64,000 nucleotides of DNA from Flavobacteriales bacterium. Lineage in GTDB: Bacteria; Bacteroidota; Bacteroidia; Flavobacteriales; UBA7312. A program made the position numbers and the translations under genes. Each line of letters begins with the position of its first letter. Position 1 is the first letter of the stretch. Location of the stretch: NCBI GenBank assembly GCA_029248105.1, contig JAQWJZ010000030.1, positions 124,001 to 188,000 on the forward strand. Direction: 5' to 3'. The notes under the pieces were generated by a model. It was not told the DNA's origin, made no database searches, and saw only the letters and a program-made list of their open reading frames with translations. Of this stretch, positions 12,616 through 47,202 are shown piece by piece.

Positions 12616-12896
12616 TAAAACGCATTGTTAAAATGGAGTTTATAGACGATAAAGTGGAAAGCTTTATCACAATATTCAACAGCAGTAAAAAGATGATTCT
12701 CACTTTTAAAGGCTGTCATTCCGTTGAACTATTAAGAGATGTGAATGCTCAAAATGTCTTTTTCACCTATAGCATTTGGGATTCTGAAGCTCATCTCAAC
12801 CAATACAGAAAATCAGTAACATTTAAAGAAATTTGGTCTAAAACAAAACCGCTATTTTGCAATAAAGCAAAAGCTTGGAGCGTTGAAGAGATTTAA
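12612..12896 (+). CDS. Antibiotic biosynthesis monooxygenase-like (ABM) small protein
   Basis: 94 residues with the dimeric ferredoxin-like ABM fold: start MIKRIVKMEFIDDKVESFI, middle FKGCHSVELLRDV and VFFTYSIWDSEAHLNQYRKS, end FKEIWSKTKPLF. Family members act as quinol monooxygenases or haem-degrading enzymes, but many have no known substrate. The ATG overlaps the preceding TGA (ATGA), so translation is coupled to the SAM hydrolase-like gene. Confidence 0.82.
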   Translation: MIKRIVKMEFIDDKVESFITIFNSSKKMILTFKGCHSVELLRDVNAQNVFFTYSIWDSEAHLNQYRKSVTFKEIWSKTKPLFCNKAKAWSVEEI

Positions 12897-23115: not shown

Positions 23116-23140
23116 AAAAAAAGGAGCCGAAGCTCCTTTT
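23116..23140 (-). terminator. Terminator of the riboswitch-controlled beta-propeller gene
   Basis: On the minus strand GGAGC, a UUCG tetraloop closed by C-G, GCTCC, then a long T-run. It lies 18 nt downstream of the stop at 23158 and isolates this gene from the antiporter gene. Confidence 0.9.
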
Positions 23141-23157: not shown

Positions 23158-24345
23158 TTATTGCCTAAATACTTTTTTACCTGAATCGATATAAATTCCT
23201 TTAGGCTGACTATCTAGTGTTATTAATTTTCTACCAAATATATCAAACAGCATATTATCTGTGTTTTGCCCCATTTCATAATCGTGAATTGAAGTTGTGC
23301 TTCTGACATCAAACACTATTGTGCCTGGCGAAACACCACAATCGAATTCAGAAACAAGATTATTATCAGCATCGTAAATATGTACTTTACCATATGAAAC
23401 ATAATCTGTTGAGCTAGTATATAAAAGGTCATTGACTTCATCATGTGCTAACTCATAAAAATTCTGATTAACTCCCAATGCATTGCCTTCAGATGTGAAA
23501 GTTATAGGATCCCACTCTAATAAAACAGAATCCATTGAAATCTGAAAGTTAATTTTATCCCCTCTCAAGCAAGATGTACCGCAGCCGGTACTCATGTTAG
23601 AAACATTAATAGTTGAAGCTGTTAATGTGCTAAGATCAATTTTAGAAAAGGATGCACCCGACCAATTCTTGTTGTTAACGGTGTAAATATAATCGTCATC
23701 AATCATCATATTATCAGGATTTGTACCATCTGCACCAAGGTCAATTTCTTCCTGATAGTTAAGTGTAGATAAATCAATAACACCTATTAGAGATTTTTCA
23801 TTACCCCATTCAAACCCATTATTGATAGCAACAAAAAGATTGTTGTCATTAATTACCATATTCTGAGTAGACCATTTTGGACCAGTAATTGTATCTAACT
23901 CCATATAAAAACTTAAATCCGAGGTGTTGAATATTTGAAGGTAGGAGTTGAATAATATTGGCAAATATGTTTGACTATCATAATCACCTCTAGAAGCAAA
24001 AATCTTACCATCAAATATTGCCAAATTCCTAACTCCACTTACAGCTTGAGTTGCTAATAATTCATACGTATTCAAATCGTACTTTAACAATTGAGTGTCA
24101 GCAGCTACGTAAAGATAATCGCCATCGATTAGCATATCGGATGCAAAACGAGCACCATCAATGGTATCTACTACTGAATAATCCGTTGTAATCGGATCAT
24201 AACTTCCGATTGTTACTGGAGTGGTTATTTCACCAGTTTCGTAATCATAACGTCCTTCGTTGAGAACCAATACTTGGTTTACAACATCGTTTTGGGCAAA
24301 TACACATTGAAATGCAATGCACATTAGCAAAATTGTTTTTTTCAT
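23158..24345 (-). CDS. Secreted beta-propeller protein with T9SS sorting domain under a cobalamin riboswitch; BtuG-like candidate
   Basis: 395 residues. A signal peptide (MKKTILLMCIAFQCVFAQ) precedes a YncE/DUF5074-like propeller starting VLVLNEGRYDYETGEITTPV. Repeated blade phrases include SDMLIDGDYLYVAADTQLL, VRNLAIFDGKIFASRG, NMVINDNNLFVAINNG and NMMIDDDYIYTVNNKNW. The last 50 residues (FDIFGRKLITLDSQPKGIYI...KVFRQ) look like a type A T9SS sorting domain, so it should reach the cell surface. A cobalamin riboswitch lies 55 nt upstream and a UUCG terminator just downstream, making a monocistronic B12-repressed unit. BtuG of Bacteroides, a surface propeller that captures B12, is the closest concept; homology to BtuG itself is not shown here. 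Confidence 0.78.
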   Translation of the reverse strand: MKKTILLMCIAFQCVFAQNDVVNQVLVLNEGRYDYETGEITTPVTIGSYDPITTDYSVVDTIDGARFASDMLIDGDYLYVAADTQLLKYDLNTYELLATQAVSGVRNLAIFDGKIFASRGDYDSQTYLPILFNSYLQIFNTSDLSFYMELDTITGPKWSTQNMVINDNNLFVAINNGFEWGNEKSLIGVIDLSTLNYQEEIDLGADGTNPDNMMIDDDYIYTVNNKNWSGASFSKIDLSTLTASTINVSNMSTGCGTSCLRGDKINFQISMDSVLLEWDPITFTSEGNALGVNQNFYELAHDEVNDLLYTSSTDYVSYGKVHIYDADNNLVSEFDCGVSPGTIVFDVRSTTSIHDYEMGQNTDNMLFDIFGRKLITLDSQPKGIYIDSGKKVFRQ

Positions 24346-24399
24346 TTTAATTTAGGTTTAAAAAAGATAAATACTAAGATTACCTTATCCCGAGGTTTT

Positions 24400-24568
24400 C
24401 CGTTCGCTTGTGACGGCAGGTCTTCTGACTTACTCTCCTAAGTGGCCTTCCCATTCGTTAAAACAGTGGACTGTAGATCTTAGGTTATTGTTGAGCTTAC
24501 AGCTGCGGGAACAGTTGAGGACTTACACCTCCTTCCCTATTAATTCTTTTAAGAAACCGTAACGGTAC
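24400..24568 (-). promoter_or_regulatory. Cobalamin (adenosylcobalamin) riboswitch
   Basis: Read on the minus strand, it contains the B12 box AGTCAGAAGACCTGCCG (24414-24430), the conserved TCCCGCAGCTGTAA (24497-24510), a GGGAAGG element (24446-24452) next to GCCACT, and the early segment AATAGGGAAGGAGG. CCGTT at the 5' end pairs with AACGG at the 3' end to close P1. The order and spacing are those of the Cobalamin Rfam family. It should repress the downstream propeller gene when B12 is plentiful, by termination or by sequestering the start region. Confidence 0.93.
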
Positions 24569-24653
24569 AAAGTTAGTCCTATTTTCTTTACACTTTTTAA
24601 AAAATAACTTATATTTGATAGGTATTATCAACAACTCTTAAAGCCCTTCTAAG

Positions 24654-25050
24654 ATGACAAAACGCTTATTTTTCATCCTTTTTACTTTTTTCTTTTTCTC
24701 GTCCTTTTCTCAACAGATTGCCGTCTATGATTTTGAAAATTTATCCCTAGGAGATATTACTGGACAAGATGGTTGGGAATTCAGTACTTCTTTGTCCTCC
24801 ATGAACAATGGCTATAACTGCCCTGTTGTTGGTACACCTTAGTTTACCCTAACCCTACTTATGACTTCCTTAATGTTAGTAGCGACAAGAAATAATACAG
24901 CTAAGTCTTTATTCAATAGATGCGAAAAAAGTAATGGAAAGCGATTATATTGAAAGAATTAATTTAAAAGCTATTTCCAAGGGGAATTACATTTTAAAAG
25001 TATTGAATAAGGATTATTCTCAAGAAATACATAGAATTATCAAAAACTAA
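24654..25050 (+). pseudogene. Remnant of a T9SS-exported protein, internally deleted and frameshifted
   Basis: The first 62 codons encode a signal peptide (FFILFTFFFFSSFSQ) and a start IAVYDFENLSLGDITGQDGW, then stop at 24840-24842. One nucleotide out of frame comes VYPNPTYDFLNVSSDK, the canonical opening of a type A sorting domain; after a second shift in an A-run at about 24886-24892 the frame continues LYSIDAKKVMESDYIERI and SKGNYILKVLNKDYSQ, ending IIKN and TAA. Thus the two ends of an exported protein are joined with its middle missing. It cannot make a normal product. Confidence 0.8.
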
Positions 25051-45041: not shown

Positions 45042-45598
45042 AAAAAGAAGCTCTTATCCATGAATTAACTGTTATGCAAAATGCGGCTTTAGTTCATAGA
45101 AATAAGGCTTGTCAATATGTCTTAAATGACAAATCCAATATTCCTTTACTTATTGAACTTACCTTTGAAATAAAGGTCAAATTATCTATTCGAGCCGCTT
45201 GGATTTTAGAACTCGTCTGTAAAGAATCCTTAAATCACATCATTCCTTACCTAGATACCTTTATTCAAAATATGGATAAAGTAAAATTTGATAGTGCCAA
45301 ACGCCCGTGCGCCAAAATAGGCGAACTCATCGCTTTGGATTACGAAAATGACGGCATCATAAAAACTAAGCTCACACCAAAACATAAAGAACAATTGATA
45401 AGTTGTTGTTTTGACTGGATGATAAGCAATGAAAAACTAGCTGTTGACGCCTATGCTATGATGATTTTATACATTTTTGGAAAAGAAATAGATTGGATTC
45501 ATCAAGAATTAAGCAGTATTTTAGAGAATAATATGGCTAATAAAAGTGCTGGATATAGAGCACGAGGTTTGAAACTTTTAAAGCTAATGAAGACTTAA
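45038..45598 (+). CDS. Helical-repeat protein of unknown function
   Basis: 186 residues, no signal peptide. Mostly alpha-helical: LTFEIKVKLSIRAAWILELV, CKESLNHIIPYLDTFIQNM, and MANKSAGYRARGLKLLKLM, suggestive of HEAT-like helical pairs. I do not recognise an enzyme motif; related Bacteroidota proteins are sometimes labelled adenylosuccinate lyase without support, and no such active-site motif is present here. It is translationally coupled to the FAH gene and its stop shares TTAA with the convergent peptidase. Confidence 0.75.
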   Translation: MKKEALIHELTVMQNAALVHRNKACQYVLNDKSNIPLLIELTFEIKVKLSIRAAWILELVCKESLNHIIPYLDTFIQNMDKVKFDSAKRPCAKIGELIALDYENDGIIKTKLTPKHKEQLISCCFDWMISNEKLAVDAYAMMILYIFGKEIDWIHQELSSILENNMANKSAGYRARGLKLLKLMKT

Positions 45599-47202
45599 TC
45601 CACAATGTTTAGTCTTTCCACACGCACCTCATTTCCTACAGTAGCCTCAAGCAAATAAATACCTGATTGTAAAGAAGGGATTTCAATAGGCATCATAGTA
45701 TAAGACCAAGCGATATTATCTTCCATAATTACTCGCCCTTGCATATCTATTAAACGATAAGATATATCCGTATTATTAGCTGTATAAAGATAAGCGACAG
45801 CATTGCATTGTACTGGATTAGGATAAATATCTAAAGCCACTTCTTCTACATCTTCAAGAGCTAGTAATAAAGCATTCGCTAAAGCATAGTTGGGAATACC
45901 GTAACCCAATTGCTCGTCAGGATTCTGATAAAGGTGGGCACTCTGTATAATAGCATCTATAATTTGCATATTACTCTTATCGTAGTGCGATTGCCACAAA
46001 CAAGCCGTCATTCCTGCAATAATAGGCGATGAGAAAGAAGTGCCATTGCTAGTAGATATAGCATTACTAGATGTAATAACCGTAGTGTTACCCCCTTGAG
46101 CTGAAACAGATGGCTTGACTCTACCGTCTGAAGATGGACCATAAGAAGAAAAAGAGGATACTTGTCTGTCCCCATAGACCGAACCCACACTCAGAATACT
46201 ATCTGCATCGGCAGGGGCACCAATATAATACCAAGGGTTATTGCCCGAATTACCCGCCGAATTGCATACAATCATTCCCTTTCTACTCGCCATAGTAGCA
46301 GCACGAGTAATGACCGTAGTCTTTCCATCCAAATCAGCATAGGTATGGTTTTGAGATTCTATATCAAAGGTCGTATAACCTAGGGAAGAATTGATGATAT
46401 CTACCCCTACACTGTCGGCAAATTCGGCAGCTACTGCCCAATTGTATTCTTCAATAAGCGTTTCACTACCAGCGTCTTCAGTTCTTAAAAGCCAATAACT
46501 GGCTTTTGGAGCAGTACCCCTAAATTCATCTTGTATATAGCCTCCCATAACTGAAAGAACAGACATACCGTGATAATTATCCTCGTAAACAGAACTTTCT
46601 CCATCTACATAATCCCATGTACCAAGAATCTGATTATTAGCAAACAAATGCTCAAAAGCATCTATCCAATCCGTATTTCTAAAACCAGCATCTAAAACTG
46701 CTATATGCATCCCTTGACCTTGATAGCCTTGCTCATGCAGGCTAACACCCTCAATCATTTCTATCTGATTTCTTGCATCACCATAATCATTTTCAAAAAC
46801 GATATCATCGAATTTTGACGATTGTCTGCCGCCTAATAAATCAAAGAAAATTTGTAATGTATCCACTTGTTTCACAAAATCTAACGCAAGCAAAGCGTCT
46901 GCATTATTACCTGAATATAAGGCTGTTACACCATTAAACCATTTGCTTTTGTTGAGGATTGTAAATCCCAAATCTTGTAAGGTCAAAAGGTAACTCGTAG
47001 GTATGGGCAAATCGGAATAATGTAAAGGTATATTTTGTTTTTCTCGGCGGTCAATAGCTCTTTGAGAAAATAAATCTAAAGGTGAAAAGTCACTTACTAA
47101 GTGACTGCCTTTGTCTTCGAAAGCAATCCATAGTTTTACAGAGAGACTATCTTGTGAAAAGGCTAGTATTGGAAATAATATGAGGAAAGTTAAAAGTCTC
47201 AT
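45595..47202 (-). CDS. S8 family serine peptidase with T9SS sorting domain
   Basis: 535 residues. Signal peptide MRLLTFLILFPILAFSQ, a propeptide-like region to about 150, then a subtilisin domain with Asp171 (HIAVLDAGFRNTDW), His211 (NYHGMSVLSVMGG), oxyanion Asn318 (NSAGNSGNNPW) and Ser389 (SNGTSFSSPIIAGMTA). The last 75 residues (LDIYPNPVQCNAVAYLYT...LQSGIYLLEATV) are a type A sorting domain, so it is exported by type IX secretion. The mature enzyme is a surface or secreted protease. It overlaps mnmA by 4 nt. Confidence 0.93.
   Translation of the reverse strand: MRLLTFLILFPILAFSQDSLSVKLWIAFEDKGSHLVSDFSPLDLFSQRAIDRREKQNIPLHYSDLPIPTSYLLTLQDLGFTILNKSKWFNGVTALYSGNNADALLALDFVKQVDTLQIFFDLLGGRQSSKFDDIVFENDYGDARNQIEMIEGVSLHEQGYQGQGMHIAVLDAGFRNTDWIDAFEHLFANNQILGTWDYVDGESSVYEDNYHGMSVLSVMGGYIQDEFRGTAPKASYWLLRTEDAGSETLIEEYNWAVAAEFADSVGVDIINSSLGYTTFDIESQNHTYADLDGKTTVITRAATMASRKGMIVCNSAGNSGNNPWYYIGAPADADSILSVGSVYGDRQVSSFSSYGPSSDGRVKPSVSAQGGNTTVITSSNAISTSNGTSFSSPIIAGMTACLWQSHYDKSNMQIIDAIIQSAHLYQNPDEQLGYGIPNYALANALLLALEDVEEVALDIYPNPVQCNAVAYLYTANNTDISYRLIDMQGRVIMEDNIAWSYTMMPIEIPSLQSGIYLLEATVGNEVRVERLNIVD

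Follow-up and report, generated by a model that had tools for sequence, protein, structure and literature searches.

The window analyzed here, a stretch of 64,000 nucleotides from the genome of a Flavobacteriales bacterium (1.74 Mb, 99.2% complete), contains on its minus strand a cobalamin riboswitch aptamer (24398..24576) followed, at a distance of 52 nt, by a lone gene (23158..24345) that encodes a protein of 395 aa. The open reading frame, structure prediction and Foldseek comparison identify the product as a BtuG-like seven-bladed β-propeller, namely a Sec signal peptide (residues 1-17; 24295..24345, minus strand), the propeller domain (residues 22-347; 23305..24282, minus strand) and a short C-terminal tail (residues 348-395; 23161..23304, minus strand). 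An intrinsic terminator with a UUCG loop, detected by a terminator scan (AAAAGGAGC-UUCG-GCUCCUUUU followed by a T run; 23119..23140, minus strand), separates the propeller gene from the downstream antiporter gene. A previous sequence-only reading of this DNA had described a single gene behind the riboswitch, isolated by this terminator and without an adjacent TonB receptor; this description stands, no such receptor being found next to the propeller gene in the window. Just upstream of the riboswitch and divergent from it is the broken remnant of a ~700-aa T9SS/CHU_C gene (24655-25050, plus strand), which is intact in G003 (L029 10460-12568, in a tandem duplication) and in G006 (L032 6947-9070). 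A second, degenerate cobalamin riboswitch (27 bits, below the cut-off; L029 about 12669-12868, minus strand, G003:C1:93168-93367) sits between the tandem T9SS genes of G003 and was probably carried along by the duplication. Elsewhere in the window, a subtilisin-like protease (45595-47202, minus strand) carries a type A T9SS tail, matched by TIGR04183 with 32.7 bits.

The cmscan search against Rfam matched RF00174 at 24576-24398 of the minus strand with 93.1 bits (E 7.9e-22; the gathering score is 31.5 bits) over model positions 1-189 without truncation, in agreement with the earlier claim of a complete minus-strand riboswitch. This is the only cobalamin riboswitch of the genome. Within the aptamer, the B12 box AAGTCAGAAGACCTGCC is present, but at 24431-24415, one base away from the previous placement (24414-24430); the L5 region TCCCGCAGCTGTAA is located exactly where it had been noticed (24510-24497), and the P1 closing pair proposed from the sequence can form between CCGTT (24565-24561) and AACGG (24404-24400). 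Abutting the aptamer on the upstream side is a -7-like Bacteroidetes promoter element, TAACTTTG (24568..24575, minus strand), which is conserved as TAAnTTTG in all five aligned f1 orthologues; the Bacteroidetes -7 promoter consensus is TAnnTTTG. The leader contains a hairpin, ACCU-CGGGAUA-AGGU (24382..24396, minus strand; CCTCGGGA is invariant in five orthologues), in which the loop sequence CGGGA is the complement of aptamer nucleotides UCCCG (24506-24510), making it a candidate L13 kissing loop. A conserved anti-aptamer switch helix between CUAAGAU of the aptamer and AUCUUAG of the leader was considered and dropped because shuffled leaders pair equally well, and thermodynamic folding of the full leader gave no better result than folding of shuffles. 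The riboswitch would be expected to repress the propeller gene in a B12-dependent manner.

Among the 60 relatives searched, eight genomes besides the one that harbors the window encode a homolog at 1e-5 or better, one of which (in G017) is the remote BtuG encoded in a btuB operon. In all four f1 genomes with a homolog (G002, G003, G004 and G006), the propeller gene directly follows the riboswitch, and the orthologues retain an open frame and 66-75% identity. A collection scan yielded 80 loci, most of them from records labelled Flavobacteriales, Crocinitomicaceae or Cryomorphaceae. Using Rfam searches in place of a home-made B12-box pattern that missed most homologue riboswitches, we detected exactly one cobalamin riboswitch in 33 of the 35 genomes with homologues from the collection loci, and in 32 of the 35 the propeller is preceded on the same strand, at a distance of 50-122 nt, by a riboswitch; in L111, the link is not visible because the propeller is at the contig edge. 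The link with B12 control has exceptions: five f7/other genomes (L035-L037, L127, L128) encode a propeller homolog without a riboswitch. The gene neighborhoods of the propeller loci otherwise vary widely, which singles out the riboswitch-propeller pair as the conserved unit. Several recurrent neighbors are nevertheless seen in subsets of loci. Three of the riboswitch-free propellers (L035 8018-9220, L036 1376-2572, L128 4878-6080) are encoded right after a cytidine deaminase-like gene, with which they are possibly co-transcribed; in L052 (9264-10334), L056 (9303-10370) and L057 (9182-10240), a second lipoprotein gene (~355 aa), in whose L052 and L057 copies a Pfam scan found no family above the cut-off, is directly downstream of the propeller; and in L066 (5280-7697), L067, L068, L076, L077 and L086, a TonB receptor gene is located just upstream of the riboswitch-propeller unit.

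The protein had been described as a DUF5074/YncE-like propeller. The propeller assignment is upheld by structure prediction and Foldseek, but the DUF5074 profile scores below its gathering threshold (18.5 bits vs 27.2), and an NCBIfam search with the window protein gave no match. A phmmer search of the PDB returned only marginal BtuG matches, ranked behind viral nucleoproteins, and we therefore turned to profile and fold methods. A profile built from a BtuG-free alignment of 37 homologues retrieved BtuG from the PDB at 7.5e-6, and profile-profile comparison with the BtuG lipoproteins of riboswitch-btuB operons gave 99.4% over about 300 columns. AlphaFold models with BtuG sequences included in or left out of the alignment had mean pLDDT values of 90.6 and 89.3, respectively. 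In Foldseek searches of the PDB with the two models, the first 13 and 14 ranks were all occupied by chains of BtuG1, BtuG2 or BtuG3, B12-bound or apo (E 1e-17 to 8e-14; TM by query 0.63-0.68, by target 0.74-0.83), followed by non-BtuG propellers, the next at 3e-11 to 5e-11 and the others worse, with TM by query mostly about 0.45-0.5; the BtuG-first ranking persists with the BtuG-free alignment. Thus, the comparison proposed in the sequence-only reading identifies BtuG, and not another propeller family, as the best structural match, at 15-17% sequence identity. A search of a viral structure library with the propeller model found generic propellers only.

According to the BtuG2 paper (PMC10404256), the ligand is surrounded by Trp194, Trp272, Tyr316, Tyr335 and Tyr239, and we verified that W194, Y239, W272, Y316 and Y335 occupy these positions in PDB chain 8bmx_D. 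Four of these residues, W194, Y239, Y316 and Y335, align with F178, W228, Y297 and Y315 of the window protein, respectively, and the same correspondences were obtained with the BtuG-free profile; each of the 50 homologues analyzed has an aromatic residue at the positions of F178, W228 and Y315, and 49 have one at that of Y297. The chance figure for this correspondence is 2e-4, a rough guide in which the positions are treated as independent. The fifth residue, W272, aligns with the non-aromatic T253, and an invariant STGCGTS loop takes the place of the W272 loop of BtuG. A further shared feature is the NEG motif at residues 29-31: it does not vary among the 50 homologues and varies little among six BtuGs. 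Residues 21-350 carry a net charge of -34, compared with the -18 reported for BtuG2. Given the fold and the pocket aromatics, this acidic propeller may bind cobamides at a site homologous to the BtuG pocket.

The predicted route of export differs from that of BtuG, which carries a lipobox cysteine within a lipoprotein export signal (PMC6143338). By eye, the N-terminus MKKTILLMCIAFQCVFAQ is a Sec-type signal peptide, as previously claimed, with a plain cleavage site predicted before Gln18 (...AFQCVFAQNDVV) and no lipobox; Gln18 is retained in 96% of the 50 homologues. The claim of a type A T9SS tail fared less uniformly. The tail sequence FDIFGRKL...PKGIYIDSGKK shows the type A motif on inspection, and the homologues L059 and L079, from larger genomes, have a PF18962 tail above the cut-off in the same place, but neither TIGR04183 nor PF18962 matches the window protein, and its tail scores no better than shuffles against a profile of homologue tails (E 1.3). 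At ~48 residues, this tail is about 30 residues shorter and lacks the beginning of the T9SS domain; the tails of L052, L054 and L055 are intermediate, with weak scores on the homologue-tail profile. The organism itself appears to use T9SS, judged by 61 TIGR04183 matches in its genome, 60 of them over the cut-off; the propeller protein is not among these. The tail is probably a truncated type A signal and T9SS export is probable for the family; for the window protein, homology and the short motif suggest the same route.

A BtuB profile was built from six riboswitch-linked BtuBs. In genomes that encode this receptor (G001, G008, G017 and G027), the profile reaches 815-870 bits, whereas none of the 22 propeller genomes tested carries BtuB (best score ≤111 bits). 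Because BtuB is missing genome-wide in the organism studied here as well as from all these propeller genomes, the case for B12 capture is stronger than it was in the sequence-only reading. In a congener (G001), the chromosomal site of the propeller, between hydroxymethylglutaryl-CoA lyase-like and antiporter genes, is occupied by cobT-cobS-cobC-like genes, a riboswitch, btuB and a BtuG lipoprotein (L033 6677-13210); in another member of the family (G008, L034), the same site contains a riboswitch and btuB, where the contig ends. Gene names at this site are from sequence inspection, except for the G001 BtuG, which matches DUF5074 with 66.6 bits. In the riboswitch tree, the G001 and G008 sequences group together, as do the f1 propeller riboswitches, which suggests that BtuB and propeller cassettes were swapped at one site; the tree does not tell which cassette is ancestral.

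The genome has a use for the vitamin. Proteins with B12-binding domains include a 998-aa mutase, whose gene precedes a MeaB-like one, and a 1122-aa IcmF-like mutase, along with a weak third match in a 293-aa regulator-like protein; a corrinoid adenosyltransferase is encoded as well, and the MetH activation domain is absent from the genome. Despite these mutases and the adenosyltransferase, no FecCD (BtuC-type) permease was found in any f1 genome.

Taken together, these observations make it likely, in our assessment, that the propeller is an extracellular B12-capture protein induced by B12 starvation, fulfilling the function of BtuG where BtuB is lacking. The sequence-only reading had proposed a riboswitch-controlled, BtuG-like capture propeller with a variant architecture; the covariance match, the fold and the conserved pairing of riboswitch and gene sustain this proposal, but its T9SS component lacks a profile match. 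Under the mechanism we envisage, low intracellular cobalamin would permit expression of the propeller, the direction of control being that expected for this riboswitch class. The protein would leave the cell by Sec and then probably T9SS and reach the surface in a form other than a lipoprotein; there, the acidic propeller, with its BtuG-like fold and candidate pocket aromatics, may capture cobamides and pass them to an outer-membrane TonB receptor that would belong outside the BtuB family and be free of riboswitch control. The imported B12 would then serve the adenosyltransferase and the two mutases. A broader generalization, for which we see somewhat less than an even chance, is that B12 uptake in a large Flavobacteriales group proceeds without BtuB, with the T9SS-exported BtuG-like propeller as the sole B12-regulated component, acting either as a secreted cobalophore or in partnership with a TonB receptor from a different family, and that BtuB and the propeller are mutually exclusive alternatives, exchanged as cassettes, riboswitch included, at one site.

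Several other explanations need to be weighed against the capture protein. The partner could be a TonB receptor that has diverged beyond the reach of the BtuB profile, in which case the propeller would be an ordinary lid with a changed anchor and the BtuB-BtuG pair would persist in disguise. The genome encodes 14 TonB plug proteins, and its receptor adjacent to dprA (C10, about 59-61.6 kb) shares 37-39% identity with the receptors next to the riboswitch-propeller in six loci. However, the best score of the BtuB profile in this genome is 39 bits, far from the 815-870 bits of the real BtuBs, and orthologues of the dprA-linked receptor are present also in the BtuB-carrying G001 (77%) and G008 (61%); this receptor is therefore not specific to the propeller system, and we do not claim it as the partner. 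On balance, we regard the disguised pair as rather unlikely. A lower probability still attaches to the possibility that the propeller is a cobalophore that is released into the medium or on vesicles, sequesters cobamides and is then recaptured or serves to hoard B12, rather than a receptor lid. The protein has no lipobox, T9SS cargo may be released, a dedicated receptor is neither linked to nor co-regulated with the propeller, and B12-binding proteins are reported on extracellular vesicles of B. thetaiotaomicron (PMC12751083). Such release would, however, be costly for a planktonic cell with a 1.7 Mb genome, and protein-B12 complexes have no known receptor; moreover, type A T9SS cargo is often retained on the cell surface. 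The propeller might also have no B12-binding capacity and be employed otherwise under B12 limitation, for example in adhesion to B12-supplying algae or particles, as the low identity to BtuG, the STGCGTS loop in place of the W272 loop and the absence of the BtuB partner would allow; against this stand the clear margin by which BtuG is the closest fold among all propellers, the conservation of four of the five pocket aromatics and the presence of the NEG motif throughout the T9SS homologues and in almost every BtuG, so that we consider loss of binding improbable. Finally, decay of the propeller gene into a relic, which the adjoining broken T9SS/CHU_C gene and the shortened tail might evoke, is scarcely credible in view of the open frame, sequence identity and riboswitch kept in the four f1 genomes, and the short tail is common to all f1 orthologues, indicating that the gene is maintained.

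The preferred reading, a surface capture protein, thus amounts to a BtuG-like way of scavenging B12 that does without BtuB and a lipoprotein anchor, with binding predicted from the fold and the pocket aromatics. For many aquatic bacteria, the scavenging of B12 is limiting, and its import across the outer membrane has been considered to require BtuB. In this Flavobacteriales group, the only B12 riboswitch is placed on a BtuG-like protein and BtuB is absent; if the propeller does bind B12, surface capture would be separated from the BtuB lid mechanism and would employ a different export route, implying another outer-membrane B12 transporter and, in the small genomes, another inner-membrane one as well. 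Our search of the literature found no description of a riboswitch-controlled BtuG-like propeller in BtuB-less Flavobacteriales.

Among known systems, the closest is BtuG itself (BtuG1, BtuG2 and BtuG3 of Bacteroides thetaiotaomicron; DUF5074/PF16819; PDB 3DSM, 8BMX, 8BMY, 8OKV, 8P97), the best PDB match, with which the window protein shares the seven-bladed propeller, the NEG motif, aromatic residues at four of the five named pocket positions, the acidity and the cobalamin riboswitch. Unlike BtuG, it is only 15-17% identical to that family and under the DUF5074 cut-off, has a plain signal peptide and is not a lipoprotein, belongs to a family with a T9SS-type C-terminal tail in its homologues, and is encoded by a lone gene in a genome without BtuB; given the DUF5074 score, the lack of a lipoprotein signal and the lack of a btuB neighbor, we classify it as BtuG-like. 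The BtuB-BtuG cassettes of G001 (L033) and G008 (L034) have the chromosomal site and the riboswitch class in common with the window unit but encode the TonB receptor BtuB, in G001 together with the lipoprotein BtuG and the cobT-cobS-cobC-like genes, and contain no T9SS propeller. Type A T9SS cargo (TIGR04183/PF18962) likewise has a signal peptide, and the tails of the larger homologues pass PF18962, whereas the tail of the window protein, ~30 residues shorter, is below detection. BtuH and DUF4465 (BtuJ) are accessory surface B12 binders encoded in riboswitch loci (PMC8941943, PMC13398666); the window propeller resembles them as a candidate surface B12 binder in such a locus, and they differ from it in having other folds (a jelly roll in the case of DUF4465), in being lipoproteins and in accompanying BtuB.
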